64,000 bases of DNA from Xiphophorus maculatus. Taxonomy: Eukaryota; Chordata; Actinopteri; Cyprinodontiformes; Poeciliidae. Under the pieces are notes generated by a model, which saw nothing but the letters and a program-made list of their open reading frames with translations, did not search any database and was not told the origin of the DNA. The translations under genes and the position numbers were made by a program. Positions 23,156 to 63,707 of the stretch are shown here, piece by piece (position 1 is the first letter of the stretch; every line of letters starts with the position of its first letter). The stretch lies in the NCBI RefSeq assembly GCF_002775205.1, contig NC_036464.1, positions 9,355,291 through 9,419,290 of the forward strand, written 5' to 3'.

Positions 23156-23161
23156 TTTATT
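23156..23161 (-). terminator. Candidate polyadenylation signal of the kinesin gene
   Basis: AATAAA on the minus strand, about 365 nt after the kinesin stop codon at 23526. It is the best-placed canonical hexamer downstream. Its use is inferred from distance only. Confidence 0.4.
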
Positions 23162-23525: not shown

Positions 23526-25682
23526 TCAGACATTTGACAAGTGATTAATCAGGCAGGTGGCCTCTGTGGAGCAACTGAAAGTTAATTTCCACACTTCTGT
23601 GTGCGGAGATGAATTGAAAGGATGTTCAGACAGGGTATCTAGCTTCATCATGCTTTCAGGGTGGCCTTTGGCCCTTGCTTTTGCAACGATTACATCCACC
23701 ATGACAGATCCGCCGCTGTCTTCATCGTGCATCAGTACACAGCGCACATCTGAGCAACGACAAAGAGCTAAGACATCAAACTGAGAAAATATTGCTTTTG
23801 GAAACACAACATCCTCCTTTGCCAGACCAAAATGGGTATCTGTGAGAAAGAACTGGGCCATTTGTTCACTATGAATGTGGCAACTCAGGTGCACAGCCAC
23901 ACTGGTGTACATCAATAGCTGCAACTCTCCAAGAGCGACTGTCGCTTGATCAATATTACAGTGAATAAGATAAAGCAGATCAATGAGACTTTTCTGAAAT
24001 CGACAGTAAAGCCTTAAACCAGAGTCCAGCTGCATGTCGGGTACATAGACCTTACAGTCTAGGGACAATTCCATCAAGTTGTCATGAAGCAATTGGTACT
24101 GATGGAGCCTGCTGTCCCCAGAACAGACAGCACTTAGTATGGCCCAGCACAGCTCTTTGGTTTGCTTCTGGCAGTAGGTATAAACACCCAGGATGCTTTC
24201 CTCTGTAGTGCCTATTAAACGTAAACTTTGGCCAGCAAAGCCTATCAGTACATCCCTCAGCTGCAACAAAGGGAGGTGATGGAACAAGACCAGAGCCTCA
24301 GAGTTGGCAGTCAGTGTGTAGAGATCCGTTTTCGTCACAATCAAGAGGCCAGGCTTTGGATCAGGTTGGCTACATTTGGCTACATTCAACCAGTGAAGTG
24401 CTATGATCCTCTGGGAGGAAGGCACTGAACAAGAGACTGACTGTACAACACCCATCAGATCTCCCAGTGGCAGAGTCTGTAGCTTCAGAAGTGGATTAGG
24501 AAATGTTATCAATGTCTGAATGCAATCAACAGTTTCTGCCTGATCTACAGCTTCAGTTGCTTGGATGACATCCGTCTTGCAACCATTGCTGTAAGACAGA
24601 GGGCTTCTTTTTTTTGGCATCAAAGGCTCTGAAATAACTTCATCTTGTTTTATTTGAAAATTATTCCCATCTTGCTTTTCTGGTGACTGCAAATCTCTCT
24701 TGCAGAAATCCCTAGACACTTCCAGCACATCACCTTCCACTTTTTCTGTCACGCTTTGCCTTAGTGTCAGGGTTGAGGGTTGTGTGTTGTTGGAATTATT
24801 GAAGTCCTGAATCATAAGAGCTGTCTCTTTGGGCTGAAGGGGATGAGATGTATCCATTTGGATGTACTGTATCAGGGGCAGAGCTTTCACAACAGAGAAA
24901 ATGGGACTCTTACTGATAAGCGAAAAAGCAAAGCTCCCTCCGACCATGAAGATATGACTGTCCTTCATTATAGACAGAACATGGCTAGACAAGCAGGCAC
25001 CAACAGGTTGTAATTTTGCAGTTGTCAGCTGGTGCAAAAGTGCAGGAGATCTCCAAAGTAGTCTGTGTGCATCACGAACAATACAGGACACTTTTCTAAA
25101 CAAAGAGCCTAGCCCTAATTTTCTAACTTCTGCAACTCCTTTGATCTCCTTCAAACTTCCAGCTTCCTCCATCTCACCACAACTCTGCTGGTGCTGGAAA
25201 GCAGTGTCTTTGAGTGGACAGCAGGCCACCTGCCTACTAAGTGGTTTTCTGTTGAACTGAGAATAAGTGCTGGTCTGTGGGAGGACCAAAAAGGAGCTTC
25301 TTCCTCCACTACTTTGCAGGTGGGACATGCTGCCTAATGAGTTCCCACCAGAGCTGGGTCTCCCCTTATAGGAGTCTGCGTCGACACCTTGGATCTCATT
25401 AGCATTCCCTTCTGGCTTCATGCCACATCCATCACCGGGGCCCAGGACACATGTCTGTTGGAGGCTGCCATCCCCTGATGAAACTTCCTCTGTCTCACAA
25501 CTTGCAATACCAGCTCCACTCCAAGACGTCCTCTGCGGGCTCTCAGACACGAGTCCTGGCCCTGATTTATGACACAAGTCCCTCTCCTGCTCCTGGCCAT
25601 CCCAGATGCTTCCTTGACCCTGAAGTGCATCTCTGCCCGACTGGAAAACTGTTCGAGGGACGGGGTCTCTTTCAGGATTGGC
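23526..25682 (-). CDS. Terminal 719-codon exon of the kinesin gene: long tail with two PH-like modules
   Basis: This exon encodes residues 619-1336 and the stop at 23526-23528. It begins after a pyrimidine-rich acceptor ending in CTAG, with Ala-Asn-Pro-Glu-Arg, in phase with the 85 nt exon at 27535-27619. The first 150 residues are Ser/Gly/Gln-rich and low in complexity. Residues about 800-895 form a hydrophobic block around [10 protein letters not shown] and [14 protein letters not shown]. Residues about 1038-1138 have a PH-like pattern: [12 protein letters not shown], then [17 protein letters not shown], then an amphipathic helix. Residues about 1223-1336 repeat the pattern: [40 protein letters not shown] and a final helix. 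From memory this resembles the PH-like C-termini of STK11IP and Nischarin; that match is inference. No ATG is needed here, because the frame stays open upstream to the acceptor. A minus-strand AATAAA lies downstream at 23156-23161. Confidence 0.85.
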   Translation of the reverse strand, partial: ANPERDPVPRTVFQSGRDALQGQGSIWDGQEQERDLCHKSGPGLVSESPQRTSWSGAGIASCETEEVSSGDGSLQQTCVLGPGDGCGMKPEGNANEIQGVDADSYKGRPSSGGNSLGSMSHLQSSGGRSSFLVLPQTSTYSQFNRKPLSRQVACCPLKDTAFQHQQSCGEMEEAGSLKEIKGVAEVRKLGLGSLFRKVSCIVRDAHRLLWRSPALLHQLTTAKLQPVGACLSSHVLSIMKDSHIFMVGGSFAFSLISKSPIFSVVKALPLIQYIQMDTSHPLQPKETALMIQDFNNSNNTQPSTLTLRQSVTEKVEGDVLEVSRDFCKRDLQSPEKQDGNNFQIKQDEVISEPLMPKKRSPLSYSNGCKTDVIQATEAVDQAETVDCIQTLITFPNPLLKLQTLPLGDLMGVVQSVSCSVPSSQRIIALHWLNVAKCSQPDPKPGLLIVTKTDLYTLTANSEALVLFHHLPLLQLRDVLIGFAGQSLRLIGTTEESILGVYTYCQKQTKELCWAILSAVCSGDSRLHQYQLLHDNLMELSLDCKVYVPDMQLDSGLRLYCRFQKSLIDLLYLIHCNIDQATVALGELQLLMYTSVAVHLSCHIHSEQMAQFFLTDTHFGLAKEDVVFPKAIFSQFDVLALCRCSDVRCVLMHDEDSGGSVMVDVIVAKARAKGHPESMMKLDTLSEHPFNSSPHTEVWKLTFSCSTEATCLINHLSNV

Positions 25683-28600
25683 CTAGTTTATGTAGTGAGG
25701 ATAGAAAGGAGAAATTAAAAGGAAATTAAACTCTTAAAGATAACAAAAACAAAAACCCTGATTTATGTAAATGATTACACATTTCTGGCCCTGCTGAGAA
25801 GAAACTGATTTAATTCAGTTCACTTTGGAAGCTAACTTTTATTTATGCATTCAATTACATTTGGATGCACAAAGACAAAATGAGGGGAAATGAAGAGAGG
25901 AATTACACGGTACATTTATAAAAACAGAAACACTTGTGTGCACTCACTGTGCCTTAACAAACCATAATTTCCTTTAAAGCCCTACAGGAACATGTAGAAG
26001 GGTCTGAATATGTGCATAACAAGCAATGGGAGAAAGTGCTTCATGGCTCATAAATCTGCATTGGGCCTTGATGGAGATGGGCAAGCCTTTGAAACTCAGT
26101 TTTGCCAAGACAAATTAAACTAAAACACCAGTAATGGAGATTCACTTTTAGAGCCAATTCTTATACCTTTAATAACTACGCATTGGCAGTATGAGATTCT
26201 CAATGTACAATGAATGAGTAAACTGTTTATTTTTACTCAAATATGTAACTGAAATCAAATTTTCTGGTTATTTTTTATAGCCATTATAATTAAAGTTTTG
26301 TTGTAGTTTCAATGGTCTCGGTTGATCAGTACAAATTTGCTAATCTGCTCATTATAAATGGTAAAAGGACTGAACTTGTATAACACTTTTCCAGTCATTT
26401 TGACCCCTCAAAGTGGTTTACACTAGAGTCACATTCACCCACTCTCACACAAACATGCACGCATCTATACACTGATACGCAGATCAGTAGGCAATTTATA
26501 TAGACCAACACAAGTACAACAAAACTTATATTAGGCTGGCTAAGCTAATTTAACCATCTAAATATTTAGTGACTGAAATTAATTCATCAACAGTCTAGTC
26601 TAAGGACCGTTGCTGAAGGTTGTAAATTCAAATATCCTTGGGCTAAATTAGCCTTCTAAAAAATTCAGTTCATCATTTAAGAGAAATTACAAACAGCTGC
26701 ATTATTTTTTAAATTTATAAGGAGGTCCAATATTTATCCCATTAAGCATAAGGAGACACAACACAAATTAAATTATACTGCACAACAGTCTATTGATGCA
26801 GTTTATCATGGGGTTTTTATTGTGAAAGATAAAATTGTATGCACACAAACAGATCACTTGATCAAATATGAACAAGTATATAGAAAATGCAAGTTCCGCT
26901 AAAAAGATGCTTAAGTAAAAATATGAAGACATTTCGACTCCCACTTAAATACACAAAACTCAAACACTCCTGCAGACAAGTTGTGATCAGTACAATGTCA
27001 CAGTAACATTGATATTTGCTTCACTATTGCCAGATGCTAGGTGCAGTTTTTCCAATTTCAAGAACTTTATCTTAAATTTAGCAAATAGTGATGGATGGTG
27101 CTCCTGTAGGAGCCATCATGTTTGATCTGTTGCTTCCTCTGCCACTGTCCATGAGGACATTTTGCACATAGGGCTTATTTTATTTATTTATTTATTTATT
27201 TATTTTTGCTTTGGGGACTTGCTTAAACTTCCAGAACTAGTAATTTTAAATGTGTGCAAATGTTTGTGTTTTTAAACAGTGACTTTTTCATATCTCGCTA
27301 TAACTTGAAACCGGTAACCAGCCCACAACTAGTCACTACTTATTTCATGGAAAGTCCCTAAAACAAACATCTTCACTTAAATATACATAAAGGGTGGATT
27401 TTCAGGTTAATTTAAAATGTACTAGTTTTAAAAACACAACGATTTAAACTTTGCTGTACTTTGATTAGCCCATTCCTTACAATAACTTTACCTAGAGTGC
27501 AGTTTGTTTAAAGTGAAAGAAAAAAAATACATACTGTAATTTGGATCTTTGTTGGAGTAGATCCAAGACAAATTCTCAGGTCTTTGAACTTGCTTTCGAG
27601 ACCCAGCACATCCATCTGACTGCAGTCAAGATAAAATGAGAGAAATACATTTTACACTCTTTCACAGGACTAAAAACTACATTCTGATTAGATGAGAGCA
27701 TTATACTTCTGAAGTCCCATTCTTATGTTGCTATGCTCTTTGTTTAAGAGCAAATTTAATTATTTGCTATAGTGTTGACACCAGAGAACAGTTGGAAAAA
27801 GAAAGCACCAATAACCCCCATCACCACCACACAAACAAAAAAATATTCATTAGATTTGAAAAGCAAACACCCCAAATGGCCGGATGAGATTAGAGACACT
27901 CTACTAGCTATGAAATTAAATAGAATCTGTGCATGATGATTTGAGGATTTACATACAATGCGCAGAACTCCAGAGGGAGGGTGCAGGAACCAAGTATATA
28001 GCCCAGAATGATTTTTGACAGTAAACCACAGCTTTAGCAGGGCTTTGTGTGTGTATCAGCAGATTGCCAAAGTGTGAAAGCAGCAGAAGTAAAGCATTGG
28101 CAGCATCAACAAGCGGGACACAGTTCACGTTCTAGTAACGATTAAAGGATTTTTGCAAATCCTAAGGATCAGCTCGGAGGATGTCCTGTACGCATCGATG
28201 CTTATCATCTCACAGAGAAAGGAAGTGTTTCAAATGTCCAAATTCTGAGGCTTAGATGCAAAGGTTTGCAGTGTTTTCCCTTCAGGTCCAACAGTGCAAC
28301 AACTACTCATTCCCCAACAGCATCACAGAACATTTTTCCCCCAGCTGGCTTCACTTTTATCTGGATGCTACAGTTGCATCTGGTTAGGCAGACATTGCTC
28401 AACTGTTTCTTTTTTTCCTTTTTTTAATCAGAAGCTCCCTTTCAAAATTCAGTGGGGTTGAAAAAGTTAATATATTTGTAATGTATGCCTCTGTCTCATT
28501 TAATACATTTCCATAATAGTTGATTCAGGAAGATGAGCTTACAGCCAACCCAAAAAAGGTGAAAGCCAAGCACAACCATTTAAAAGCCTAAATCTCAAAA

Positions 28601-31600: not shown

Positions 31601-34600
31601 ATTAATCACACATTAAAAAGGTTTGGGTCACATTTTTACAGCGCTTTTATCTGTCTCAGTCATTTTATTTCTGATTTATTATTTTATTATCAAGAATATA
31701 AACGGGAGATGTGAGAACAAACAATCCTTAAACATTAACCACAATCCAAGGTGATGAAAAGATTTAAACTGCTGAATGTCATTGTTGCAACCATAAAAAT
31801 AGAGCAATGAAGTTTGTCCATTTCTTCAGGGTCTAAGATGCTATTAAGAGTCAGACAAAATGCAAAGTTAACACACTTAATGTAATGACAATGAAAATTC
31901 ATAAAAATCTGCAAACAGAATGACTGCTTTTAAAAGGAACCAGTCCCTGAAAGCTTTCTTCAGTCAACTATTGTTACCACAAAGGAAATCGAAGAAAGAC
32001 CACTTCTTTCAAAGCATATCCAAATCAACAATTTCACATATACAACTTCAATAACAATTCCAAAGGAAATGAACAAATGGGTTGCCACAACTGCAGAGCT
32101 TGCTTGAAGATGGTAGCAGGTATACAAGATATTTCTTAACTCATTGTAGGACAGAGGTCTTAGAATGCATGTCTGATGTAAAGGAGGACAGAAAACCACT
32201 TCTGTCCTAGAAAAGCATAGAAAACAAAATTACTTTCTGCAGAAAGTACAAGAATTGGACAACAGAGGCCTGAGATTTTTTCTGAAGACACCACTTCAGG
32301 AAGAACCAATATCCAGCATGATTTGCATTGGTCTTGAAATATTAAGATCTAAACTGTAAATAAGTATGCTTGATAAACTTCAGGCACTTCAGGTTTTACA
32401 AACAATTTAATATAGAACTTTAATTTACTATCCAACTTTCTGATACGTTTTTGAAGTAAAGTTGAACTACAAAATGTCTTAAAACTTGTGGTCTCAGGTA
32501 TAAACAATGACTCTTGACAGAAGTAATTTCACCTTCAAAGCTGCAGTATGAAACTTTTATAAACAACATTTTTATACAACTTGAAAATTACTCTCTGTAA
32601 TGGAGCCTGCCACAAATGCACAGGCTAATTACCATGCCCACCAATGAAAATCATGCTAATCTATGATCCAATTTTGGGTTTCTGCCAATGAATCAATCCC
32701 ACCCTTACCAAGCAATCCTAGAGAGTTAGCAGCTTATGTTAAAAAACACTGGCTCAGATCAGAATGTTCTGACCATCTGAAGTCCTCTCCAGATAGCTAG
32801 ACAAATTATTTGTTTCAGCTCTAGTCAAGTAGTTTTTTGTTTTTTTAAAGGTACTGCTCCTTTACAGAACAGTTTATATGGCGAGCCACACCAGTAGCAA
32901 CCCATTCAACTATTCTACACAAAGTTCAGAGTAAATACTTTATTAATGGTGAAGAAAGGAATATCTCCAAGGCATTTTGGTAGGTCAGTTGTTTGTCGTC
33001 CACTATTTTACTTTAGGTCCTGGCAACTACTAGCGAGATTTTATAATAGTCAAAAGTATAAATACTGTATCTTGGGACCTTGTTAGAGATTTGAATGAAG
33101 AGGCAATTCTGGAAAGGTCACATTTGGCTTTTCACTTAAAAAAAAAAAACAAAAAAAACAGGAACGATTGGAACTTGGTTGATTCCCACTCAGCATAGAG
33201 CACTGAACAAATACTTTTTGCATGTTCTCTCCTCTTACAATAATACCACCTTGATTTATGGCTTTGATTTGATCCACATACCTGATGAATGGTGCTCTGT
33301 GAGTAGGTATTGTGCAGACTGAGAAGGAAAGAGTGAGGAGAATTTTACAAGATGCCAGCATACTGCATGTTTTACCCAGAGTTTTGCAGCTTCACTTTGG
33401 ATAGATTCTCTGCAGATTTGGACAAGTCAGTCAAAGACCGGGAAGAGGAAGACAGCAGCCCGCTCTGCAGATAAAAGAGGGAGAAACAACTAGAATAAAA
33501 ACCTGTCTCAGAGTTTGAAATGACTGACAACTGTCTATGGTGGATTTAAATTATACAATGCCTTGCTTTTGGTATATACTGTATATCATCAGTATTCCTG
33601 ACAGTTTCACAGAAGAATGTAGCTGAAATAACGAACATTTAGAAAAATGTCAAAAAATATAGTTTAAGCCCCTCTACACCTGTTAATATAAATTATTTTT
33701 TTTGGTCATGTGCTTTTCCCACATTTAGACAGTAACATGATTGGTCAAAATTCAGAAAAACCTTTGGTTACAGAAAAGATTACTAAAATATGACAGCTTG
33801 GGTGTTTAAGATAATCTTAAAGAGTAATTATTGAACTCTTGCAAATCTATTTAGAGCAAATGTTAAATACCAACAATTGATTGGAACCACGAGAAGCAAA
33901 ATAAAGATCCTACTAGCACAATCATGCCTGCGTATTCACTGCTCATTCCTTTCCCCTCACTCTGCTCCGCTGCAGCTGGTAGTGTTGCAGAGGAGCTAAA
34001 TTTTTTTCTTCAAATCATATCTCATACCATCATGACATAGCAAGTTTTAATGGGGTTTTTTTAAGTTACATACTACAGCTTTCAGCACCTGAAAACTACT
34101 GCAACGTACAGAGGTACATGTATAAAAAAAAAATGCATAAATTCAGTATTTTGTGTCAGTCCTTTTAGGAGCAATAGGAATATAATTACTGTTTTGTATG
34201 GAAGCAGTCATATTATGCTATATGCCTTTCCTTTAAAATTATTGCATCAATACAGTGAAACTATTGCCTTTTTACTCTAGGCCATTATACTCTGCAAAAC
34301 TCATACCGACCCATGCTCTGTAGTGATTCATTTCAAGCGATTTCATTTTCCTTTCTTACAAAGTCAAACTCCTCTGTTTTGTGGAAATGAATGCTGAAAA
34401 ATAAACACTTATAAAGTTTCTTAAAAATTTACTGTTCTGTGTTGGATAAGGAGCTGCAGGTGAGGAAATTATATTAAACTGTTTAATTCTGCTGCACCAA
34501 TTCAATCCTACAACACCTCGATATAATTGAAAGATTGGAGGAGTAAAAACGGCTTTTGAGTCTTCTGCAGCTGGGTCCTTTTATAGAAAACATCTGTACT

Positions 34601-37600
34601 TTTTTATAATATGCAAAATCAGTTCCACAATAGCATGATTTTGCAATTGTGATGTTAAACAGTAATGATTAAAACAAATCACTACAAGGAAATAAGTATA
34701 TCTATACTGATGGATATACAGAGTTTACAGTGTCAATATTCACTGCAGGTTGCAGGCTTTCAGCTTTTAGTCATGGCAATACAGCACAGGACGCTGACTT
34801 GCTTTGTAGAAATTAAGATTAGACAATGCAGATGACACAGCAATGTTTCTTTTGGGTACCGACTGTACCTGCTGTTTCTCTTTCAGTTGTGAAGCTTTAG
34901 CTGGGTGGTTAAACCGCAGTATGGATCCTCCTCCTAGCTGTATAATTGCACCTAAAGGGAACCAAATAAGTAAAGCGTAAAAAGTCAGAAGAAATGATAG
35001 TCGAAAAGCAGCAGGAATCCCTCACAGCGCAGACTTACGATCTTAAACCTTGTAATTCATTATAAATGCAGCTCTAAATGCTGAAATAAGCATTGCTAAT
35101 AAGATTCTCCTAAACTGGAGAAAAGGAGTTCCATCTCTAGTATCTATTATGCATAGAAACAGCAGGGATCTGGCCCAGGGGAAGCATGGAAAACTTTCAG
35201 TCATGGAAGCATGGAAAACTTTCCATGCTTCCATGACTGATACAGTAACTTATTGTCTACACACCAAACTATGAAAACTCACTTGACATTTGTTGAGTTT
35301 TTCCTTGAGTGAATTCACTGCTGAAGAAAATGAATCAGTTGTCATGAGGAACATAATCTCTCCAATATGATTGACAGTGGCCTTGACCAGGAGGATCAGT
35401 TGTCAGAGGAAATGGTCCAAGGAAGCTTCCAAGTCTTGTGAAGCTGAAGAATTTCGGTGATATGGGGGTTTATATATCGGACCTGAATTCATACAACCGT
35501 ATCCACAGATTTTCTCTGGGTCTTTTCTCTTCCTCTTCCACAGCAAATACTAATCCTCCAACTACTAATGACTTCTGACGAGTGACAAAGCACCAGAGAA
35601 CAACCTGTGATAGATTCTACTTGCTGTTGGACTGAAAATTACTATCATTTGTGAAAAAAAGAAAAAAGCTTCAGATGCAGCTGTTTTTGACAAGAATACT
35701 GGATAAATTGAAAACCTTACAAAAATAACGACTACTATAGACAGGCTGCACTCTGGCTGGTTCTGTGTGCAGCTTTTATCTCTTGAAAACCAAAGCAATA
35801 TGGATGAGGAGTCAGAAAGTACTTCAAGCTTCCAACCTCAACAAACAGGGGCCGCTCAGGGGGCCAGAGTTTCAACTAGACTCTCTTCTATCCTTTGAAA
35901 GGTTAATGCTCTGGCCCACTTCAAAACCTGTTGCCCCTATCAACTCCATCTGCCAATTAAATTGAGGGCTTCAAGCTTTGTCTAGAGCTTTGTCCAGGGC
36001 CCCTCGCCCTTAAAAATGTTTAGCAAGAGAAATGGCATCTGCCCTGTGAAGAGCAGCGTTCACAATCCACTCATGACTTAAGTGTGTTTCCATGGGGAAG
36101 CCAGCAACAAAGTGGATTTCATTTGCAGATGAGATCCAGTGATGTCATTTCACCTCACTCAAAATGGATAAAAGGGTTATTGACTCCAACAAGCCAAATA
36201 ATTGTGAATCTAGGAGAGAAATCATTATTATAGTCATGTCTTGCACCATCCCTTCCCCATATTTATGCAAGAATATCAGGAGGAAAATTAGATTTAGCTG
36301 AAATGCTTACCCTGAGTCAGCTGGCAGGGATGTGTAACCGCAGAGCCGTTAACTGAACACAGTGCGCCATCCTGAGGGAAGAGTGTAACAATCCCACCAC
36401 AGTTCTCAAGCAGACAACGTTCACGGGGGAGCTCAGGTCCAGAAAGCACTAGAAGACAGTTTAGAAAGCTTTGATACCCCAGCAGCAGAAGATGTAACAT
36501 GAAGATTTAAGTGTAGTGACCTTTTTCCTCACCAGTTTCCTGACAACATGAGGCTTCATTTTGAATCCAGGTTTTGCCCTCCTATGGTGAAGGGGAAAAA
36601 AATGAAAGCCTAAGTTTTCAAATGCGCATAGTAGAAAGGGTGCATATTGTTTTTAGTGCCATAAAACCTAATATCATTAAAAAGTAGAACAGATCCATTT
36701 TGGTTCTTTCAATACAGTAATTATGAAACTTTTCTAACAAAAGCCTATGGAGTCATGCCTCAAACAGAAAGATGCTACTGCTGCTTTTTTTTCCTAGGTG
36801 ACCAATGTGTTATGTTGTGCGTAACGTCAATTATCAGGAAGTTTATACTTCCTGCTTATCTATCCAATTTATGGTTTGTTTTATGGTTATTTAAATATTT
36901 ATCCACTCTAACACAAAAATTAATATGACCATCATAAGCTACAAGCCTGAACTCAGTTTATATATAAAAGAAGAAAAATTATGCAACAATTTGAGAACAT
37001 AAATTAATCCATTTACTTTCAAATAATACAAGAGGATTCCTGTTGTGAGGCAGTCTTCATTGAGGCCTATCAGATGAGGTAACTGGCAGTTCAAGATGAC
37101 CCTACTCCCCTCCTTTCTCAGAGCAATGCTTTCTTCCTGTGGGAACACACCCAAAGAAAAACAAATTCATTTAGTAGCCTTTAATTGAATGATGCACAAT
37201 AAAAATGCTGACAGACATTTAAAGGCAGCTAGCAGAAAACAGAATTCTTTATGGCTGCTCTTGGACGCCTGAAGGCCACGAAGAATATCATGGTTCCAGC
37301 CATGTGTCACCATGAAACAGCAGAGAGGCCAACGGCAAAAGAGACAACATAAATCATTCAGATTATGGTGGCGAAAGTCAAACTGTATTTTGTGTTCAGT
37401 GAGTGAGACTGACGCATTTCCACTGACTGTTATCACACACCATGCACCATTGCTTTTATTGGTATATTGAAGTTGACTTACTTTTAAAACTATGGTATTT
37501 TAATAACATGCAAACTACAGCAAACTTTAGATTCATTATTTATACAGTGAAGAGCATCATATTGAAGGTCAAAGTGAATAAAATTTATGTTCTAGTAAGT

Positions 37601-40600
37601 AAGACGGAAAGCCACATATATTTTAAATGATCCTCCTTTCAATTTCAATGCCAAGTCAGGCTTTACCTGTATAGCACCCAAAGTATTTCAAATGGTTGTA
37701 CTGGTATAAAAAAAAAGAAATAAAAACATTTACAATTCAGCCTGAAAGTATTCAACTCCCCCAGGCAGATTTTGTCTTTCAACAAATGTTGGTGTTTTGG
37801 AGTGGTTCAGCCAGAATCCTGACTTAAATTTGATAGAAAAATCAGTACAAGAAGGTAAAGATTAGAGTAATGGCAAAGAGGCCTTCCAATTCCGAAGACT
37901 TTGATCTCTTCACTAAAGATCAAACTACCAATGGAAACATGCAAAACAAGTCTAATTATAGGAAAGGTTTGATTACTGGATTGCCAATGTAGCTTAATTA
38001 AGCCTGTAAATTGAACATTAGACATTCAAAATGTTACAAATACAGTGTTTCCCCCAGTGTATTATAATCCTGGCAGGCCTCTAGGCGTAGCATTTCTTAT
38101 TTAAGATTTTTTTTTTAAATGTCTGCATTTTTTAAGACTTTACAGTTGGTGTTCAGATAATTTTCCAATAACACATAATCATCAAGTGATATTTTCAAAT
38201 TTAACGTCAACTTTAAACATTTAACTTAAAAACATAGCGGGCCACTGGATGAATGACTGCTGAGCGCCCCAACCACCGGGCTTAGCAAGTTTTCTGGGGG
38301 AAGCATTGAAATATTTGAAAGTTTTGATCAATTTTGTAGCAAAGCAACTTGAAAATTACTTAAAATAAACCCACATTTGCTTGAAATCCCTTCTAAACTT
38401 GTATTTAATGGTGTTACATGTCCTCACCAGACAGAAGTGATGGTGTAGACTTATTTAATCCCTGAAAGTCTTTTGTGAAGAACTGGAAAGCCATACTTAA
38501 AACGTCTGATCTGCTTCTTAGACCATTTCACTCCGTCTAGCAATGGCTTCTGTGGAAATCTGATGGCATGAGTCATAAAGCATGTGGTTGAGAAAAAGCC
38601 GTATTAATTTTCAAATCATGTTTAAATACTTTTGTAATAATCAAAAGACCAAATATGCTCCACACTGAAACATTTTTATGATTGCTAATATGGAATTAAG
38701 ACAAAATACATAACCCAGAGGTGACCTGCAGGTTCAAACAATACAAACCATAAGAGAAATCTCCAACCAAGTGTTTAGGCACCGATAACCTTTACACAAA
38801 ACATGTGCTGCTGCTGTTCAATAATCGAAAGTCTTGCAATGTGCTACTACCAGAAGTATCCCTCCGTTAAGCTGATGGAGTAATGCCTCGCATCAATATG
38901 GATTTTAAAAAGACACTTCAACAAGGCAAAGCAGAAAAATCTCATGGTGAATACAGAAAATGTGCTTTGCATGAACTGATCGCCCCTGCTTTTAACCCTT
39001 CCACCAGCTCTGTTGTATAGATTGGACTGTACAGAGAGAGACATGTCCACCACTATCACCTCATTCATTGGCAGTTGCGAGATGGGAGAAATCCTTTTTT
39101 CTAATGAAGAGGGAGAGGCATCGACCAGAGCTCCCTGTACTTAATTAAAAGGGATTTTTCACCGACTTCATTAGAGGTGAGGAGCAGCCCGGCAGTTTAA
39201 TGCAGTATGTCACTTTCCTTTAGACCCTTGCAACAGATGAGATCTACCGTATTTTCTGGACTACAAGTTGCAGTTTTTTTCATAGTTTGGCCGGGGGTGC
39301 AACTTATACTCTGGAGCGACTTATGTGTGAAATTATTAACACATAATAAAAATGGCACCAAAAAGAAAATCATATTCTGTGGATTACAAGCTGCAAGTAG
39401 TAAAATATGCAGCCGAAAACGGTAATCGAGCAGCAGAAAGAAAGTTTGGAGTTAGCAAGAAACTTGTAAGGGACTGGCGAAAAGCGGAGGTTACCCTTAC
39501 TGAAATGAAGAAAACAAAAAAAGCCAATCGCGGGCTAAAAGCTAGGTGGCCCCAGCTAGAGGAACGAGTTCGCACATGGGTGCTTGAACAACTTGCTGCT
39601 TGTCAACAGTGCAGTTGCATCTCTACGCCCAGGTATTTGCCAAGGAGATGAATATAAATGACTTTGCAGGAAGACCTTCTTGGTGTTATCGCTTCATGCA
39701 ACGCAATCGCCTCTCTATCAGAGCAAGGACAACAATGTCCCAAAAATTGCCAGCAGACTTCCAAGTCAAGGTCAACAGTTTCCGTGAGTTTCCCCCAAAA
39801 ATGCCACTTATACTCCAGTGCGACTTATAATATGTCTTTTCCTTCTTTATTATGCATTTTATGGCTGGTGCGACTTATAATCCAAAAAATACGGTACTTA
39901 TATTAATTCCCAAATGCTATAAAAGTTTACTCAATATAGCAAAAGCAGTGTTATCAAAAACATAGGCAAAAAAATGTTTGCTTTCAGACTGAAGCAGCTG
40001 GTGAGCATACTGTAATTAAATGTGGCCTAGACCAGCAGCCAAGCTCAGGAAGTGCTTAGGCTTCCATTAAAAGCAATCATTTTGTAGTTGGCTAGAATTT
40101 TAATTAATTTCTTTTTTAACCTTTTGGAGCTGCAGCATGCATTTCAAAACAGCACTGCACTAAGCTGGCTAAATCTCCTGACTATCAACTTTGTCAAGTA
40201 GAACAATCTGCCAAAAGAACAGAATAATACAGAATTCAGAACAATGGAAACACCTTCATGCTTAAATTGCTGTGTCACATTAAAAGGTTAATTTTCCTAA
40301 ATGAATTGCATTAATATCCCAGATTGCTTGTCTTTAAAGAAGTTAAAACAGCTTCTACATAAAGGAGAGAGCAATTACGTGACCAGCTTTCAAAGTGACT
40401 CGGCCTTTTGCTTGGAGTGATTGATTATATACTTCTGTTAAAGAACTGTCACCTTGTTAACAGCCATTCCTTTTTCATGCTCCTTTTCATTAGTTTGTTA
40501 CATTCAAGAGCAGAATTTTAACCAGAAACCCATTTGATAGTAAAATAAACCATCAAATTAGCCTGAAAATTCATTCCAGCCACCAGAATGCAATTAAACT

Positions 40601-43600: not shown

Positions 43601-46600
43601 TCTTAATTAGGTGCAGTGACAGCAGCTAATGAGTCCAGGGCTGTCAAGCTACTAAAAGTCACCTGCTAATTATCCAACACCCACATGCAGACCTTGGCAC
43701 ACAAAATATCCCCCCCTCCCCAAATGTGAACCTAAAAAGTAGCAGGGCCCTAAAATCTGTTGCTGAACCCTTTTCAAAGACTTTAGCTTAATTTCAACTT
43801 TAGCTTCAGGACTTTCACAATAGTTTCAAATTTGATAAAGAATTTACAATGAAGCATGTATGATGGAAAAGTCCCTCTACATTTTTCACAGAGTTACTGG
43901 TACACTTCTGTTTGATAAATAATGCAAGACGCGACACGGCCAAATACAGCGAGCTCCAAAAAGTGACATTTGGTGTTAGTTCAAGAATTAGGCACAAATT
44001 TAGCTGAAGAAAGGGGATGTTCAGTATAAACTCTGAGCTCGCAGCAGTGGCTCTGTTGAAACATTGGGTGGTTTCAGGATGATACCATTCTGTCCCTGCC
44101 ACAAGAAAAGACATGCAGTTTGCTTAAAAATCTTCATACAAGCTTCCCAAACACACCATCTCCAACAACTGACTCAAAAAGTTAGCTTTTGGATGCTGTT
44201 TAAATCCAGATAGTTAGAAAATCAGACTGAATGCTCAGCTGACCCCTCTATAAGGAAGTTATTCACAAGGCTCGCAGTGACACCAGCTGGCAGGAGCTGG
44301 TTACTATAAGCATCATTATTAAAGTAGAAAGGGGATCTGAGGCATCATTTATGCATTTATGGAGCCGTTTCCAGAAATAAAATGCAAATCTTTTATTTCA
44401 CAGGACAAAATTCAAAAATATTCACCCATTTTATATGCATTCTTGTTTTCAAAATGTTTTAACTTTCTTTTTTTCATTTCTAATTAGTTATTTTATTAAT
44501 ATAGTTAGTTTGGACATAAGCTACAATTCTATGCTTTATCTTGATTTATGGATAAATAATTTTTCTGCTGTTAAAATGAGCTGCACTGTTGTACCAGCAG
44601 TCCCCTGTAGGTCTGAGGATGTCTCAAGAATGAATCTAAGAACATTCATACATACAAACATATAGAGATGCTTACACAAGTAATATTTTGTGTATGGTTT
44701 GTTTCAATTAAAAAAAATAAAATAAAAAAATAGTAGTGCAATTTTTCCTCATTGTTCCTCATTTTGGAACATTTTATCCTAGTCTTATTTTTGAATGCTT
44801 TTTCTTTGACATCTTGTTACATTTGACTTAAAGATCACCCCCTTTCTCTGTTCAAAAATCCATCCAAATGTAATCAATGCAGGTCAAAATTGCACTCTAC
44901 ATACACACACACAGAGATCCAGCACAAACACACACATATATATATGTATAAATAAACAGGAATTAAGTAATCTTTGTACCTCCAGAATGCTCTGAGCACC
45001 CCTCCACTTAGTGTTCCACCGTTTGGCAAGTGTTTTGACCTGATGGAAAAAGCAAAAATATCCTGTATGATATCTAAAAGGAAATTGTGGTGGAAAATTA
45101 CTACAAGTTCACATCTGCTGATCATGTTATATGAAATGCTTGTAAACTCTGCGTAAAATAACTATTTGGGTTTCATGTACAAAGTTGGAAGTTGTTTTCT
45201 GCAGCTGCATCAGAACCAGTCTGTCTCGCCCCTTGTTGTTAATTCTTTATCCTTGGTATAAAACTCATGTGTTGTCTCTGCCTGGCAGAGCTTTTCATCC
45301 AGACCTGCTTCATTATTGATTGTCCTACAACCTCTCTGTATTGTGCACAATATATTAATAAACCTGATTGAGTGATTTCACCTGACAGTGCTTGGTAAAA
45401 TAGTTTTTTCCACAACCGAAATCTTGAGTGTGTCTCTAATGTTTGACTTGCCTTTTCTTCATTGTATTGCAACTTCTCCCTTTGCTTTACAGAAGTAGCC
45501 CAATCCACATCAATAACCTGCATTGTTGGAGAAAACCATATAAAAGAATCAGCACACTGTTGTCATTTTGGATGGCATTTTGTATTCCTGACAGATTGCA
45601 GAACCTGAGCGGCTTCAGCTAGAAGTGTTCGAAGCCTGGTGACCTCAGCCTGCAGCTCTCTGAGCACTTTGGTGCTGCCGTCTGCATTCACTGTTGGGGT
45701 GTTTATTATGTTTTTAGCCCGGCTGGCAAAGCGCAGAGTGGTTAGGGTCTCCTCGTAGTTCACATCAGCAGGAGAAATGGCTGCCAAGAGAGGTCATCAT
45801 GCAAGAATGACGATTCGTCAGTCAAATTAAAGGTGGTGAACAAAGATTACTTTACTGCATTTCCAATAAGATAAAAAAATAGAATCCAAATAAATACAGT
45901 GGAAATGTCTTCATAACACATACTTGCTATAATTGTAGTTCTGGTGTTTCCACCAAGACTGTCTTTCAGTAGCCATGTCAGCACAGAGTTTCTGTAAGGA
46001 ATGAAGATCTGCTTCTTTTTTGCTGACTGTCCACTCACTGCAAGGTCAGCTACTGGTCAAATTGAAGAAAAAAAAAAAAACAATAATTAAGGGAAAGAAA
46101 AGTTTAATCTTTTGGCTCTAGAGATAAAATTTAGGAACCTAAAGGACTTTGCAATTAATTTTTCTATTGACCAGTCTGGTCAAAGTTTTGTTCTGATTTT
46201 GTCATTTCCAATAAAAATAAAATGTTTGCATCACTGCTTTTTAATAGTATCCATAACCCTAAAACCATCTACAATTTATCATGCTAAAACCACAAACTTC
46301 AGTGTTTTTCACAGAAGATTGTGTGACAAACACCATGTAGCACATAAATAAGTCTGGCATTTTTAATTCACCCCTCTTCATTCCCACACCCCTTGACCTG
46401 ATTTGATAATTGCACAGTCATCATCAAATCATCTGTAAATAATCTTATGTTAGTAAAAATTCAGTTCTGTGAAGGCCAGGCAAGAGAAAGTCGTGGAGAA
46501 GTTTAGAGGGTTACATTATAAAACAATAGAACAGCAAAGAATTTCATACATTATTGCATGCTTTGTAGTTGTAATAAAAGTGCTAAAATACTTAACTTTG

Positions 46601-49600
46601 TTCAGAATGAACTAACAATAATATACTGCTAACCAGCACGAGATGAAGCTAATTTATTAATCAAGCTGAATTTACCAAGAGCTGAGATCACACTGCTCAA
46701 GGTGACCAGGGATTTGTTGATGTTTGCACTTTCCTTCAGCCTGGTGCCCATGGCTTGCATCCCATCAGCTCTCTCACTGCCAGCCAGGTCCACCAGTTGG
46801 ATCTTACTGTGCCTCTCATGGGGCAACTCACCATCAAACCATCCCTGAAAAAGGAGGATCAAAGATCATTTCATACAGCTATGCATACACTTTAAACTGA
46901 ACAAAAATATTGCTTTAGATTTTGGAAGAAAAAAAAGATGTAATAAGTGTTTAATAAGCAGTGATATAATTTGAAGTAGGACTTTAAACAGTTTTCAAAT
47001 AAATGTTTCCAGAAACCACAGAAGGCAAGCAACTCGGCTTGCTTTCTGAGTTGCCTGCTCACATGTCACACCTGGGTAAAGATGATGGTGAAGATTGTGT
47101 GTGAACGGCTGCTGAAGTCATTCATGCCGGTGCTGGCGATAGTGCGGGTGGCATTCCCAAGCGTGATGAGGCTCTCCACATTACTCTGACTGAGCACCAC
47201 ATGTTTTGATAGATCTACACAGGCATTAGAGAGAAGAAAATTCTGAATGACATTTGAAACACTTTATGTAAGACTCAGATTAACAATTAAAATTGCGCAT
47301 TACTCTCAACATAAGGTCCATCCGTAGGGTGTTCTCTCACTTTCAAGACCCCTCCTTCTGAGCATGGCAGCTTCTTCCTTAGGAGGTCCTGTACACGCTC
47401 ATTGTAAATCTCCAGATAACTGGTGAGGGAAAAAAAAATGTTTCACAAAAAATTAAAGAAATTAGTGATTTAATTATCTGACTTTTTTTGCAGCAGCAGA
47501 AAGCAGGTAATGTAGTCTCCAAGTACTCAAGGCAACCAGAAGACATTTATCCTTCTACCCATACAAGTAAACTTGTTCAGGGGCCAAGTGACATTTTATT
47601 TTCCAGTTCTCCTGTGATGCAAATGTGGGACTGTCTTTTGTTGTGGAAATCTTTCATATTTCACTGTGTTCATCACTCACCATGTTGAGCCAGTAACGCA
47701 CAGTTGTGTACTAGATAACCCTCCTCAGAGAAGAGGCTTTTAGGTCAGAATACATAGTTTGACTAATCTTCATTTTGTAATATTAATGCATTCAAATTTT
47801 CAGATTACCGTAATTGTTTGCGTTAGCAGCCCTAAAACATTGAGTATTTTTATGTAACATGTTAACTATCTAACCAGTTTTCTGTATTTATTTCAGATTA
47901 ATAGGTAGAAGTCGTGACTTCTAATATGCCTATTCCCAGATACACAGTGGCCCTACCATTGATGGAATTAACTTTTCATGAGGTCCAGCAGATTTTTCAG
48001 CCGAGTTAAGGTCAGGTCATGAATTCTTCTCATTTTACTTCCCAAGACAAAGGAAATAGTGATTCTTTGTGTACAACAGAATGAAGCAATGATCAGCACA
48101 AAAATCTCCCACCAGATGAGTTTACATATTTTTACAAACCAGGAAAAGAAATGATTAGCTCAAGCTACACTCAAGTTAAAAAGTGTAAAATTATCACCCT
48201 TCTCTTTGCTGATTTTGCATCTTTTCACAGGCTAAATATTTAACCACCATCCAATGCAGCACAGGATGAATTAAACATTATAAAATTAGACCGTTTGTAT
48301 TTGAGTCCACTGCAATCATTTCAGTCTAAATGGATTCTCAACACGCAGACCCCTGGAGAGTCCTTGTTCCAAACATTCTTGGAATGTTAATTGCCAAGAA
48401 GCTGTTATTCATTTCCCCCCCTTTACATCCAGTTTTAATCAGTTAATTAAAACTGGATGTTTTGGATAATAGGCCTTAACCAATAAATCATGATCATATA
48501 ATATTTTCTGGGCTCCTATCAAGTTCCGTCATTGCTCAGTAAAATTGCCTAGTTATCGATTTTCTGCTTCCTTCAAGATGAGGAACAATTGAGGAGTCTC
48601 TTCCCTACACAAAATATTGGAGGATTTTAATACATTTCTTTCAAGATCAGGTTGCAAATCAATTCAAGTTTGTAAACTGTTCTGTAAAAAGTTTAAAGGT
48701 CAGGTTCATTTTTGGCTTTTTATTTTTGCAGTGAAGTTATACAACTTAATTTATTTTTAAATAAGAATCCACAAGGTCAACATGCATAGACATCAATATT
48801 TGTTTAAAAGTTAGTCACCTCCAGCTCTTTTGTAACCATCTTAAGACTTGTGGGATAATTCTAGTTAGATATTTGACTGCTTTCATTGCCAGAAGCTCGT
48901 TTAATTTGTTTTCTGCCACAGAACTTGCTTTTTGGTAAACTAGATAGTTTTGAATTGGGTTGAAGTCAAATAATTGATCACCCGATTTAACCTTTACAGA
49001 ACAAACTGCTCTTTGTGGCCACACCTGATTAAAACTTTAGGAGCAAAAATACTGAAGCTCAAAGAGTCTTGTGCGGACACTGTATAATTGTAGGGTAAGG
49101 AAAGAGGCATAAAAATGTGGGTTAACTAAACAAATGGAAAATAGCCTGTACTTGTTTAACACTTTATCAAGTCCAGAGGACACCACAGAGTTTTACACTA
49201 CATTCAAATGCTGAAGGATTTGAACGTGGCTATATTGTAGCTACAGATGCCCTGGGACAGACCAATAGAAGTGATCAAAGTTGTATTACAAATTTCAATC
49301 AAAATAATCACTATTTCCCTGCAAAAATGGCAATACCATCAAACTACAATGGACCCCGTCCCTGCAAATCAGTCTTTGAGGATTTAACAATTCACAGATT
49401 GTGGATCGTTACTCCAAATTACCCACAAAAAAAAGATTTCTCATTCAGATTTCTTCAATGAGCATGTAAAATATTTTTAAAAAGTGCTTTAAAAAATATT
49501 TCATAAAGCTAAAACATCAAGGTATTTTAGCTTCCTATGTTGCCATTAGCTTGTGTTTGCAGAGAAGCTAATCAAGGAGCTGCACTCATTCTCCTTACTG

Positions 49601-52600
49601 CTGATTGGCTGTACCCCCAACAGCAGATATGAGACTGTGGATATTAGCTTTTGTACTATTCCCAAGACAGTTTCCACTGTATGTATTAATGTATATTAAG
49701 GCAACACCTGAATCAAAAGGCTAAAATAACTCCTTGGCATGTTAGCAAATGTTGTAAAGCCCTGGTTATTACCAATTCATTTGATAGGTTTCTTGAAAGA
49801 GTGATGCATCCAAAAATTGAAGGACAGCGGCACTCAAGGACTGGACTTGCACTCAAAAAAACAAAAGGCACTGAAATTGCACGTTGCATGATTACTTCAC
49901 ACAGGAAAAAACTTTAATTAAAGACAAACTAAATGTTCATAACTCATAAATGTTGACATCTGCCTGGAACTGTAAGCAGCAGTATCTATGAAGACTTGAT
50001 GCATTTAACAAGAACTGCAACTGTACAATTGCTTACCTGACCTCCATTTGAAATGACATGCTGTCGCTCCTGCTGGATATCTCCAGGAACAACTCCTCAC
50101 AGATCCGTGGGATTAAACCTTTATCCACCTTTAATTGAGAAAATGTTGACAGAATCAAAACACCAATTTTAATCTCACATTAAAATTAGCTACATTTTGA
50201 TCCTATGACATAATCCAAGTGTTTACACGTTGCTGCAAACACAACTCAGCACATGCAAAGACTGCTGAACAACACAATCACCGCATCTAATATGGAGTCA
50301 TTGATGCATAAAAGCAATTTCAGTCCGAGCTGCTTGCCCTCTTGTTTTTAATTACAAAGTAACAGACAGTAGGCATTAAGAGCCATATATAATTATCCGA
50401 CGTTGACAGCAACTCTGCTGATGACCTTGCATGAGTCCCTTCAGCAGGTGACTAGAATCCTCCATCATAATGTAAGAATCTCATTGTGGTGAAAGGAATG
50501 GAGGTTTTACTACACTCATCACATTTTCTGATTAATGCAAAGTGAGAAGTCAGTATAATGAGGCTGCAGACTGTCAGTTTAGCAGGCAAGAGGTCAATGC
50601 ATGCTAACCCAGCTGCATTAGTTGGTGCATTTAAAAATGCATTTTTCAGCCTCCTGTGTGACTAAGAATTGTAGCTATAAACTAGTGCTAAATTAATTCA
50701 CATTTTTTATTGGAAGTCTGTGCCAACACAACCAGCTGTGATATCTGAATGAACAGATGACAATTATCTTTCAGCCAACAGTGCTTTTAACTCTTCAGAG
50801 TACTTTTTTTGTGAAGTGCCTTGAAACATGTTGTGAATTGGCCCTAGAAATTGGACTGAAATCAAATGAGGGATTTTATGTGATGGATCAACACAAAGTA
50901 GTGCATAGTTCTGGGGTGGATGGATACTTGTACACGGTTTTCATCTTTTCTTTTTTTTACAAATAAGTTTGAAACATTCGTAATGCATTAGCATTTAAGC
51001 TTCTTTATTGCAAATTCTCCAAATAAAATCCAGGGCAATGTATTGCTTTCAAAAGTGATCTAATTAGTAAATAAAGGTCACTTGTTTTTAATTTGATCTC
51101 GGTACAAGAACCAATGTTCTGTGAACATTTCAGACGTTGGTTAAACCACTTTAGTGAACAAACCGCAACATGAAAATGACTAACCGCTCAAGGATAACAT
51201 TGCGGACAAATTAGGGATAGGTTATAAAACAATAACTTCACCTTAAACATACCAATATAAAACACTAATCAAGCTGTCACAGAAGAGGGAAAAAAATGAC
51301 AACTATAAATCTACCAAGAGATGGCCACTTACCAAAACTGAAAAGCTGAACAAAGAGCATTAAGCAGCAAAGCTTTTATTAGTAACTCTGAACAAGCTGC
51401 ACAGTTATGGTGGGATAACTGATAACTACCAGTCACCAACTAAATAATCTTTATGTACAGAAACCATTTTTTGTTTAAAAAAAAAAAGTTCCAACACTAT
51501 CTCATTGTGAAACATGGTGGTGGCAACATCATGCTGTAGGGAAAAGGAAGCTGGCTTTGAGTAGATGGACAGATGAATGCAGTCATATAAGGAGAAATCC
51601 TGCAAGAAAACAAGTTTGAGGCTGCTTTTTCTGACAAAGCTAAAGCCAATTATTAAAAACTTACAAAAATGACACTACATGTGCAAAGACAGCAGAGACA
51701 GATACTGATAAATTTGCAACAGTAATTGCAAAGAAATGTGGTCAACTCTTTATGTTTTTACTCACAATATAAATGAGAGTAAAAATACATACACACATAT
51801 TTAAAGAATCGAAACTAAAACTATGCATTTGTTTCCTTCCAGTTCACATTAACGCACTGTCTGGTGTCGATCCAATACAAACTTCCAATATATAAAAAGA
51901 AAAAAGAAAAAACAGAAAATCTAAATTTAAGGTTTTAATGTGACAGAATGTGAGAGCTAAAAACCGATCTAGATATTGTTAGAAGGCGTTGTATTCAGCA
52001 GCAAAACATTTTTTTGCTGTAAAACAAAATGTAGAAATGATTCTTACTTTATTTCCCATCATGGTGTAAGATTTCCCTGAGCCCGTTTGGCCATATGCAA
52101 ACACACAAGCATTGTAACCATAAAATGCTGCTTTCAAAACGTCTGAGCCCAAGTTCTTGAAAATCTGAGAGATGAAAAGTTCATTTTTAAAATAAAAAGT
52201 TATTTCACTTCTGTACAACGCAAAATAAGAAATTTATAAATAAAATTCACCTTCTCCTGTGATGAAAATGTGGGACTGTCTGCATCAATTGAATCAAAGG
52301 AGTAGTCGTATGAAAACATTTTCCCTCTGTCCTTCAGTTTCTCCCCTCGACCAGCTAAAGGCTGGAATGTAAAGTGAATAGTCCACTTTAGGTAATAACT
52401 TAATTAAACCCATTCTAAACCTCGCTCATTTTTTGATAACGTACCTTATGAATAGATGTTGTGTTCCCCCTCATGTGAATTATCACCTTCGAGGATAACA
52501 ACTTTTCTCTGTCGGAAATAAATGGGCGTGATGTGACGTTCAATTTTAAAACGTTAAGATAAAAACAAAAGAAGAAATTCCATTGGACCCACCTTTTATT

Positions 52601-52642
52601 CAAAGGACGGACTCGGACCGCTACTTTCATCACCGAAGACAT
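23526..52642 (-). CDS. Kinesin-3 family motor protein, KIF16B/STARD9-like, 19 coding exons
   Basis: Predicted plus-end-directed microtubule motor for membrane cargo. Coding exons in transcript order: 52593-52642, 52445-52508, 52251-52361, 52048-52164, 50037-50128, 47304-47419, 47072-47214, 46676-46844, 45924-46049, 45605-45780, 45452-45517, 44980-45039, 37017-37136, 36533-36581, 36311-36448, 34869-34951, 33376-33464, 27535-27619, 23526-25682. All phases agree; the sum is 4011 nt (1336 aa plus stop). The start [16 protein letters not shown] is the usual kinesin N-terminus. Visible motifs: P-loop GQTGSGKS (100-107), switch I NDFSSRSH (215-222), switch II DLAGSE (250-255), a KKK run after ADL (K-loop region), and neck AKNIIN. 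A degenerate FHA domain spans about 431-585, followed by SGLLSS and [12 protein letters not shown], which match KIF16B closely. All introns are GT-AG except intron 11, which is GC-AG. The tail lacks the KIF16B coiled coil and PX domain. Exon joins are inferred from splice sites, phase and family alignment; orthology is unresolved. Confidence 0.9.
26355..26530 (+). repeat. Teleost dispersed repeat in kinesin intron 18
   Basis: Matches from memory the widespread fish repeat that reads as a block with TATATAGCGC-like and TTTACACTA-like words followed by CACATTCACCCA. A second degraded copy lies at about 49134-49210. Confidence 0.5.
27176..27206. repeat. (TTTA)n microsatellite
   Basis: Seven or so TTTA units within kinesin intron 18. 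Confidence 0.9.
29067..29100. repeat. Perfect 13-bp inverted repeat, 8-nt loop
   Basis: Arms 29067-29079 (CATTTGTAGTGTC) and 29088-29100 are exact reverse complements. Confidence 0.9.
30510..30965. mobile_element. Decayed Tc1-like relic containing a perfect hairpin
   Basis: Both ends carry Tc1-like terminal words: AAGTATTCACACCCATTG at about 30515 and AAAGGTATGAATACTTTTGG at about 30945 in inverted orientation. GGTGGTTCTATAAAG at 30776-30790 matches the tail of the family. No coding frame survives. Confidence 0.65.
30776..30813. repeat. Perfect 15-bp inverted repeat, 8-nt loop
   Basis: Arms 30776-30790 (GGTGGTTCTATAAAG) and 30799-30813 are exact reverse complements. They lie inside the Tc1-like relic. 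Confidence 0.93.
35197..35240. repeat. Perfect 20-bp inverted repeat with 4-nt loop
   Basis: Arms 35197-35216 and 35221-35240 are exact reverse complements. A partial direct copy of the left arm lies immediately upstream (35180-35196, GAAGCATGGAAAACTTT). It is located in kinesin intron 15 (34952-36310). Confidence 0.95.
37730..37990 (+). mobile_element. Decayed Tc1-like transposase fragment
   Basis: GTTTTGGAGTGGTTCAGCCA, GAATCCTGACTTAAATTTGA and GTAATGGCAAAGAGGCCTTC resemble the DDE-proximal end of a Tc1-like transposase gene. Stops and indels break it. Confidence 0.6.
39245..39896 (+). mobile_element. Internally deleted pogo-like DNA transposon with TA target site
   Basis: About 650 bp with terminal inverted repeats: left end TACCGTATTTTCTGGACTAC; right end, read on the minus strand, TACCGTATTTTTTGGATTAT. 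TA sits at both edges. The interior keeps the 5' part of a transposase gene and lacks the DDE catalytic region, so the copy is non-autonomous. Confidence 0.8.
39352..39830 (+). pseudogene. Truncated pogo-like transposase: helix-turn-helix DNA-binding part only
   Basis: The first frame (39352-39600) starts [20 protein letters not shown] and continues [20 protein letters not shown], a Psq/CENP-B-type helix-turn-helix as in pogo/Tigger and JRK/POGK proteins. A frameshift near 39600 moves the reading to a second frame with [20 protein letters not shown] and [12 protein letters not shown], the second CENP-B-like DNA-binding motif. The sequence then runs into the right terminal repeat at about 39790, and no DDE catalytic domain is present. 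It lies in kinesin intron 12, antisense to the gene. It is interpreted as a relic. Confidence 0.8.
40774..40815. repeat. 18-bp inverted repeat with one mismatch, 6-nt loop
   Basis: Arms 40774-40791 and 40798-40815 pair with a single A-A mismatch. They lie in kinesin intron 12. Confidence 0.88.
45040..45451 (-). other. GC-AG intron 11 of the kinesin gene
   Basis: The donor reads GCAAGT (plus-strand positions 45446-45451) after GAAGAAAAG, and the acceptor is CCATCAG at 45040. Splicing here joins EEK to [20 protein letters not shown]. That fits the KIF16B pattern of KEWTNKW followed by ILK, with both phases zero. No GT donor in range preserves frame. The intron is 412 nt, and most of it is the dispersed repeat copy B. 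Confidence 0.85.
45087..45395 (+). repeat. Dispersed repeat, copy B, LTR-like, inside kinesin intron 11
   Basis: The first ~225 bp match copy A at 15348-15566. It continues with CATTATTGATTGTCCTACAA and an AATAAA hexamer (about 45355-45361). TATAAAA is at about 45258. The arrangement of TATA and polyadenylation signals resembles an LTR, but terminal dinucleotides and target duplications were not found. Confidence 0.65.
46230..46540. mobile_element. Tc1-like relic in kinesin intron 8
   Basis: ACCACAAACTTCAGTGTTTT at about 46288, then TCTGTGAAGGCCAGGCA and GTCGTGGAGAAGTTTAGAGG match the Tc1-like family's 5' region. It is non-coding. Confidence 0.6.
47420..50036 (-). other. Kinesin intron 5
   Basis: 2.6 kb with no supported exon. 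It holds a perfect 15-bp hairpin at 48425-48460 and a degraded copy of the teleost dispersed repeat at about 49134-49210. Confidence 0.6.
48425..48460. repeat. Perfect 15-bp inverted repeat, 6-nt loop
   Basis: Arms 48425-48439 (ACATCCAGTTTTAAT) and 48446-48460 are exact reverse complements. They lie in kinesin intron 5. Confidence 0.93.
50830..51640 (+). mobile_element. Decayed Tc1-like transposon in kinesin intron 4
   Basis: Ordered matches to the Tc1-like family: GGATTTTATGTGATGGATCA at about 50871, AAATAAAATCCAGGGCAATG at about 51021, TCTACCAAGAGATGGCCACT at about 51311, and AAACATGGTGGTGGCAACAT at about 51510. It is antisense to the kinesin. The transposase frame is destroyed. Confidence 0.8.
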
Positions 52643-55895: not shown

Positions 55896-55929
55896 AACCA
55901 TACAACTGTTTTAGAATACATTCAGCGGT

Positions 55930-61185: not shown

Positions 61186-61402
61186 ATGTGGAAGACTGTT
61201 GTTCCAATTCTTGCGACTATTTTCGCCGCTGGGCAGTGCGGCATGCCTGGGGGATGGCAAGACGCCGACATCCACAGTGAGGCTGTCCTAAGTGCGTTGA
61301 ATTACGCCGTCGCCCAACACAACAGAGACAACCAAGCAGATGCATCCCTCCACAAGGTGGTTCAAATCGTCTCCGCACAGACTCAGGTGAGTGTCGCAAA
61401 CT

Positions 61403-61481
<79 letters not shown>

Positions 61482-63613: not shown

Positions 63614-63619
63614 TATAAA
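63614..63619 (+). promoter_or_regulatory. TATA box of the second cystatin gene
   Basis: TATAAA at 94 bp before the ATG at 63708, nearly the same spacing as in the upstream cystatin gene. Confidence 0.6.
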
Positions 63620-63707
63620 TAGTCCCGTCACTTCTGCTTTCAAAGAGCAGGCAGACAGCATCAAAGCTTCTTGTTCTGAGCTTTTTGGCAGTTTCACCTA
63701 CGGAACA

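Follow-up and report, generated by a model that had tools for sequence, protein, structure and literature searches.

The described systems closest to this locus are the kinesins KIF16B (SNX23) and STARD9 (KIF16A), together with the motorless proteins Nischarin and STK11IP and the adaptor SKIP (PLEKHM2). Nischarin carries a PX domain and leucine-rich repeats and is also reported to bind Rab14; STK11IP carries leucine-rich repeats. KIF16B is said to be inhibited by its own stalk, which is reportedly the subject, going by its title, of a 2015 paper by Farkhondeh, and a 2011 paper by Ueno is reportedly the source cited for what its C-terminus binds. According to PMC10494930 the KIF16B C-terminus binds PI3P through the PX domain, and Rab14. 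PMC3240744 describes SKIP as a RUN- and PH-domain adaptor of the kinesin-1 light chain, to which it binds, and reports a distant relationship between the C-terminus of STK11IP and the regions on either side of the PH domain of SKIP.

The locus examined here lies in a 64,000-nucleotide stretch of the Xiphophorus maculatus genome (C22:9355291-9419290), referred to below as the window. Comparison of its sequence with the rest of the assembly suggests that it quite probably holds a third KIF16-type kinesin-3 paralogue, beside KIF16B on contig C5 and STARD9 on contig C19, whose sole tail would be a tandem PH-like module of SKIP/Nischarin type and for which no coil or PX exons were found.

Structure of the kinesin gene

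A single kinesin gene was modelled on the minus strand of the window from homology, consensus splice sites and phase, and its 19 exons encode 1336 residues (Table 1). All junctions are in phase and have consensus splice sites. The introns are GT-AG with the exception of a GC-AG intron (AAG/GCAAGT, position 45452, minus strand) after exon 11. An earlier sequence-only reading had proposed a 718-codon terminal exon and the joins at 33376, 27619-27535 and 25682; the exon, its coordinates, its residue numbers and the joins were all reproduced in the model. Exon 18 is the least certain exon; it was part of a motor query, and nothing matching it came up in the C5, C19 and C11 stretches. The C5 counterpart of the exon 17 motif is at 528458-528517.

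Table 1. Features of the kinesin gene, with positions in the window unless protein residues are given.
Feature	Position	Strand	Basis
Exons 1-12, motor domain and start of neck region	44980..52642	-	Exon model, Pfam Kinesin
Exons 1-4	52593-52642, 52445-52508, 52251-52361, 52048-52164	-	
Exons 5-8	50037-50128, 47304-47419, 47072-47214, 46676-46844	-	
Exons 9-12	45924-46049, 45605-45780, 45452-45517, 44980-45039	-	
Exons 13-16, kinesin-associated and FHA region	34869..37136	-	Kinesin_assoc, weak FHA
Exons 13-16 singly	37017-37136, 36533-36581, 36311-36448, 34869-34951	-	
Exon 17, SGLLSS..TDLSKSxENLS motif in common with KIF16B	33376..33464	-	
Exon 18, short linker (about 28 residues; phase 2 to 0)	27535..27619	-	Splice sites and frame only
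Exon 19, 718 codons and stop, tail residues 619-1336	23526..25682	-	Open frame, exon model
Conserved C-terminal part of tail, residues 993-1333	23538..24560	-	In common with C5 exon
Predicted PH-like module 1	Protein about 1065-1145	-	PF23142
Predicted PH-like module 2 (range of the sequence-only reading)	Protein about 1223-1336	-	PF25625 via paralogue
AATAAA polyadenylation-like signal downstream of stop	23156..23161	-	

The motor domain matches Pfam Kinesin with an E-value of 8.2e-106 and its nucleotide motifs are intact (P-loop, SSRSH and DLAGSE, at residues 100, 218 and 250). The best PDB match of a 318-residue part of it is KIF1A (E 4.9e-93). It is followed by Kinesin_assoc (E 2.9e-7, 31.2 bits, cut-off 29.5) and by a weak FHA match (E 0.031, 15.1 bits) which is under the cut-off of 20.7. 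The blocks of the FHA region, exons 13-16, align with C5 KIF16B at 44-60% identity. The assignment to KIF16B/STARD9-type kinesin-3 proteins made in the sequence-only reading thus holds for the motor and Kinesin_assoc, with the FHA domain itself remaining below cut-off.

The same reading saw no coiled coil, PX or START domain, and none was detected. When the coil exon of C5 KIF16B was compared with the window by tblastn the best match had an E-value of 2.6, and for the PX exons the best was 1.9, on the opposite strand. Taken together, the C5 coil, PX and small pre-tail exons gave nothing under E 1.7 in the window and no piece longer than 28 residues. Past residue 560 the window protein has no run free of proline and glycine longer than 33 residues, whereas part of the C5 coil has one of 185. 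Pfam found no PX in the tail, and when the whole last exon was scanned against Pfam-A at E<=10 the one family to appear was PH_PLEKHM2, with no START match. That the gene is devoid of coil and PX exons within the window is well supported by these sequence comparisons.

Other features were noted along the window. A p31comet (MAD2L1BP) gene at 54542-55480 on the plus strand (E 1.5e-50) adjoins the start of the kinesin, and an EPHX1-like epoxide hydrolase lies at 55900-60700 on the minus strand (EHN E 4.7e-17 and abhydrolase, in two of the three pieces scanned). A tandem pair of cystatin-domain exons is found at 61177-61530 and 63612-63938 on the plus strand, the frame of the former passing into a simple repeat of TA type. 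Within intron 12 of the kinesin, which is long, lies a transposon helix-turn-helix at 39340-39648 on the plus strand (BrkDBD E 1.2e-9), which we take to be Tigger/pogo-like.

The tail and its relatives

The 718 tail residues were searched against the 704-Mb assembly of 101 contigs. The matches listed at E<=0.001 were the window itself and C5:535651-536652 only (39% identity, E 3.6e-52). Residues 993-1333 are identical to the C5 tail at 126 of 331 aligned positions. The N-terminal halves of these exons have no likeness above chance, since 192 of 200 shuffles score as high.

On C5 the motor exons are at 522.0-525.3 kb, with a weak first-exon match at 518.9 kb, followed by the neck and FHA region at 527.2-528.5 kb and the coil at 530.75-532.3 kb. 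Between the coil and the tail exon is a small exon (532.8 kb) whose ...RLKYE end is in phase 0. The tail exon is open for 968 residues from 533755 to a stop after 536658. This exon lies between the coil and the PX exons, the latter being downstream at 537055-538982. The locus is KIF16B on the evidence of its motor, coil and PX, compared with a presumed human KIF16B sequence, and of a nearby ESF1 gene (RRM_ESF1 E 9.2e-12): the motor region is identical to the presumed human sequence at 470 of 549 residues (86%), the coil and PX also match it, and in human ESF1 is a neighbour of KIF16B on 20p12. The 968-residue exon has a phase-0 acceptor after CTCACAG and closes with a stop of its own; an AATAAA follows at 536907, upstream of the first PX match at 537055. 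Given these signals, it is likely to be an alternative last exon, so that KIF16B would end in either the tandem tail or PX. The sequence-only reading had called the tail of the window gene unlike that of KIF16B, but a homologous exon inside the KIF16B locus itself speaks against this. The C5 exon also contains three WDYxxKVRxQTLHPW-like repeats (residues 359, 423 and 473), possibly a binding motif, which were not seen in the window protein.

In a human KIF16B isoform, presumably genuine, PX would likewise be replaced by a tail of this kind. The presumed sequence of its end matches the C5 tail (E 1.6e-35) and the window tail (E 5.2e-23), and scores 35.4 bits with PF25625, over its cut-off of 27. 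If the isoform is right, the alternative tail has been kept from fish to human and is already in sequence databases. The idea that this C-terminus was instead that of PLEKHM2 was dropped, as a search of the PLEKHM2-like part of C1 found no match for it at E<=1.

The sequence-only reading placed two PH-like modules in the tail. For the putative module 1, PF23142 (PH_PLEKHM2, cut-off 22 bits) matched tail residues 447-527 with an E-value of 0.0089 and 16.4 bits in the whole tail, 18.3 bits (E 0.0023) in its C-terminal 324 residues and 19.3 bits in a genome-wide scan, always below the cut-off. For the putative module 2 Pfam gives nothing on the window sequence itself, PF25625 (PH_NISCH_C, cut-off 27 bits) not matching it, and the module is seen only through the paralogue. 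A 333-residue piece of the C5 tail gave 22.3 bits with PF23142 (E 1.3e-4), above the cut-off, and 25.4 bits with PF25625 (E 1.3e-5), under it. In a longer 836-residue piece both were below their cut-offs (20.2 and 24.1 bits) and in genome-wide scans both were over (22.7 and 27.1 bits), thus the verdict for C5 shifts with the length of the piece or the type of search. Ten shuffled or reversed control tails were made and none of the seven scanned matched any family at E<=10. The two modules are a prediction of fold, one below cut-off and the other made via the paralogue.

Genome-wide, PF23142 has eight matches, of which four lie on C1 and two on C24, with one each on C5 and in the window, and PF25625 has three, two of them on C20 (110.7 and 61.6 bits) and the third on C5. 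From Pfam scores alone, C1 would be PLEKHM2 and C20 Nischarin. The two C24 exons exceed the PF23142 cut-off (24.6 and 24.8 bits) and the locus is one we suspect to be STK11IP. Six pieces of C24 and C1 were scanned; three were over the PF23142 cut-off, one gave a weak DUF and two gave nothing. The plain protein search with the 718-residue tail did not return the C1, C20 or C24 loci, which makes any kinship with them remote. Given these results, the last ~340 residues of the tail appear remotely related to PH_PLEKHM2 of SKIP and, via the paralogue, to PH_NISCH_C of Nischarin.

The likeness to STK11IP and Nischarin, suggested in the sequence-only reading, stands in this remote form for Nischarin, by way of the paralogue, and for STK11IP it comes from PMC3240744; that paper indicates that the suggestion points to a real module family. 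Searches further afield returned little. No PDB relative of the tail was found by phmmer up to E 10, NCBIfam gave no match, the sole match of a two-sequence tail profile was dynein light chain at E 2, and 247 pattern matches in viral contigs contained no relative. A single-sequence AlphaFold prediction of window 23529-24536 had a pLDDT of 34 and no fold was inferred from it.

Age of the gene and alternative readings

Three KIF16-type loci were found in the assembly, namely the window gene, KIF16B and STARD9, the last being identical to a presumed human STARD9 sequence at 291 of 394 residues. The motor region of the window gene is 60% identical to that of C5 (327/541) and 61% identical to the presumed human KIF16B sequence (337/557). 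As the gene is equally far from these two, which are 86% alike, the comparison favours a split before the divergence of fish and mammals. The trees disagree over the age and sister group of the gene. In a four-taxon FastTree analysis of 229 columns, with KIF1A as outgroup (present only as two stretches) and without the presumed human sequences, STARD9 joined KIF16B in 88 of 100 replicates and the window gene joined KIF16B in 12. In a six-taxon tree that included the two presumed human sequences, the window gene grouped with KIF16B in 57 of 100 replicates and fell outside both in 41. The three fish genes have 394 columns in common. If the window gene does lie outside KIF16B and STARD9, the tail would be the older ending, lost in STARD9.

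FHA-like exons close to the KIF16 type at C11:20058093-20060790 were rejected as a kinesin because no motor exon was found in the surrounding 40 kb; the locus is presumably PHLDB1. At C1:5194503, C19:25628019 and C15:774112, motor segments with 47-50% identity to the window gene lie in single open frames of 495-509 residues, with few or no introns there.

The gene could instead be a fast-evolving, lineage-specific duplicate of KIF16B, arising from the teleost genome duplication and having shed its coil and PX, with no ancient third paralogue. The only other tail match listed at E<=0.001 is in KIF16B, the 57 replicates above point the same way and zebrafish has two KIF16B copies by name. A fish-specific copy should however lean towards C5, and the equal distance of the window motor from C5 and the presumed human KIF16B makes this origin unlikely. 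It is far less probable still that exon 19 forms a gene of its own or is part of a neighbouring one, the kinesin ending elsewhere. The 7.7 kb between exons 17 and 19 and a short exon 18 with no relative found would suit such an arrangement, but the tail exon is on the same strand and in phase through exon 18, no KIF16B-type continuation into coil and PX was found in the window, and the homologous C5 exon likewise lies 3' of a kinesin-3 motor.

The tail might also be a C-terminus already known from a KIF16B isoform, in which case the gene would be an ordinary KIF16B-like gene, perhaps already annotated. The presumed human isoform argues for this, matching as it does both fish tails and PF25625. 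Its sequence is however only a presumed one, and a motor with this tail alone, lacking coil and PX, would still be a variant. Nor was a SKIP/Nischarin-like tail on a kinesin described in the available parts of the full-text literature found, mostly papers outside subscription (including PMC11006876, PMC5951578, PMC4071412, PMC12222028, PMC3240744 and PMC10494930). The name KIF16C did not occur in the full-text literature found with KIF16A/KIF16B. We regard the ordinary-gene explanation as somewhat unlikely and prefer the third paralogue.

Possible function and comparison with known systems

If the window gene is a third paralogue, its intact motor would be expected to walk to microtubule plus ends with the tail as its cargo end. 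The coil-less motor would probably be monomeric until clustered by cargo, and loss of the stalk should lift the stalk inhibition known for KIF16B. The tandem PH-like tail, which KIF16B seems to keep as an alternative last exon, would here replace PX and PI3P binding and dock the motor on endosome-type membranes. As a motor without PX cannot use PI3P through PX, it is likely to be anchored by a small GTPase of the Rab14 class or by a partner protein; Rab14 itself is a first guess and Arl8 or others are possible. The role of the tail is probably to bring the motor to endosomal membranes or to GTPases.

A broader proposal can be made only tentatively. Vertebrates may have had a third KIF16 paralogue, since lost in mammals, which united a motor and a SKIP/Nischarin-type adaptor in one chain, while KIF16B would splice either a PI3P-reading PX tail or a GTPase-reading tail. 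If so, the two tails of KIF16B would allow a single motor to reach different endosomes. Tail exchange, PX for PI3P versus the SKIP/Nischarin-like module, would decide which cargo a motor of the KIF16 family takes, and a gene with the second tail alone would be a natural experiment on the role of that tail.

STARD9 resembles the window gene in having a kinesin-3 motor of the same family and a giant exon (1998 residues on C19). It differs in that the motor and FHA blocks are 53% identical (208/394), and the C-terminal tails show no likeness above shuffles to the STARD9 exon. The N-terminal half of the C5 tail exon, compared with that exon, was equalled by 4 of 60 shuffles, a score which looks like the product of acidic low-complexity sequence. 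KIF16B has a motor and FHA region 60% identical in the C5 copy, the SGLLSS motif and a homologous tail exon within its gene, and is set apart by its long coil and PX exons, neither of which was found for the window gene. STK11IP has no motor and is likened to the tail through the description in PMC3240744. Nischarin has in its C-terminus the PH family PF25625 that is matched by the tail of the paralogue. SKIP has the PH-like region PF23142, but it is a separate adaptor that links cargo to a kinesin, whereas the window gene would have the module within the motor chain. This would place a module of the SKIP kind, SKIP being the lysosome adaptor of kinesin-1, inside the chain of a kinesin-3.
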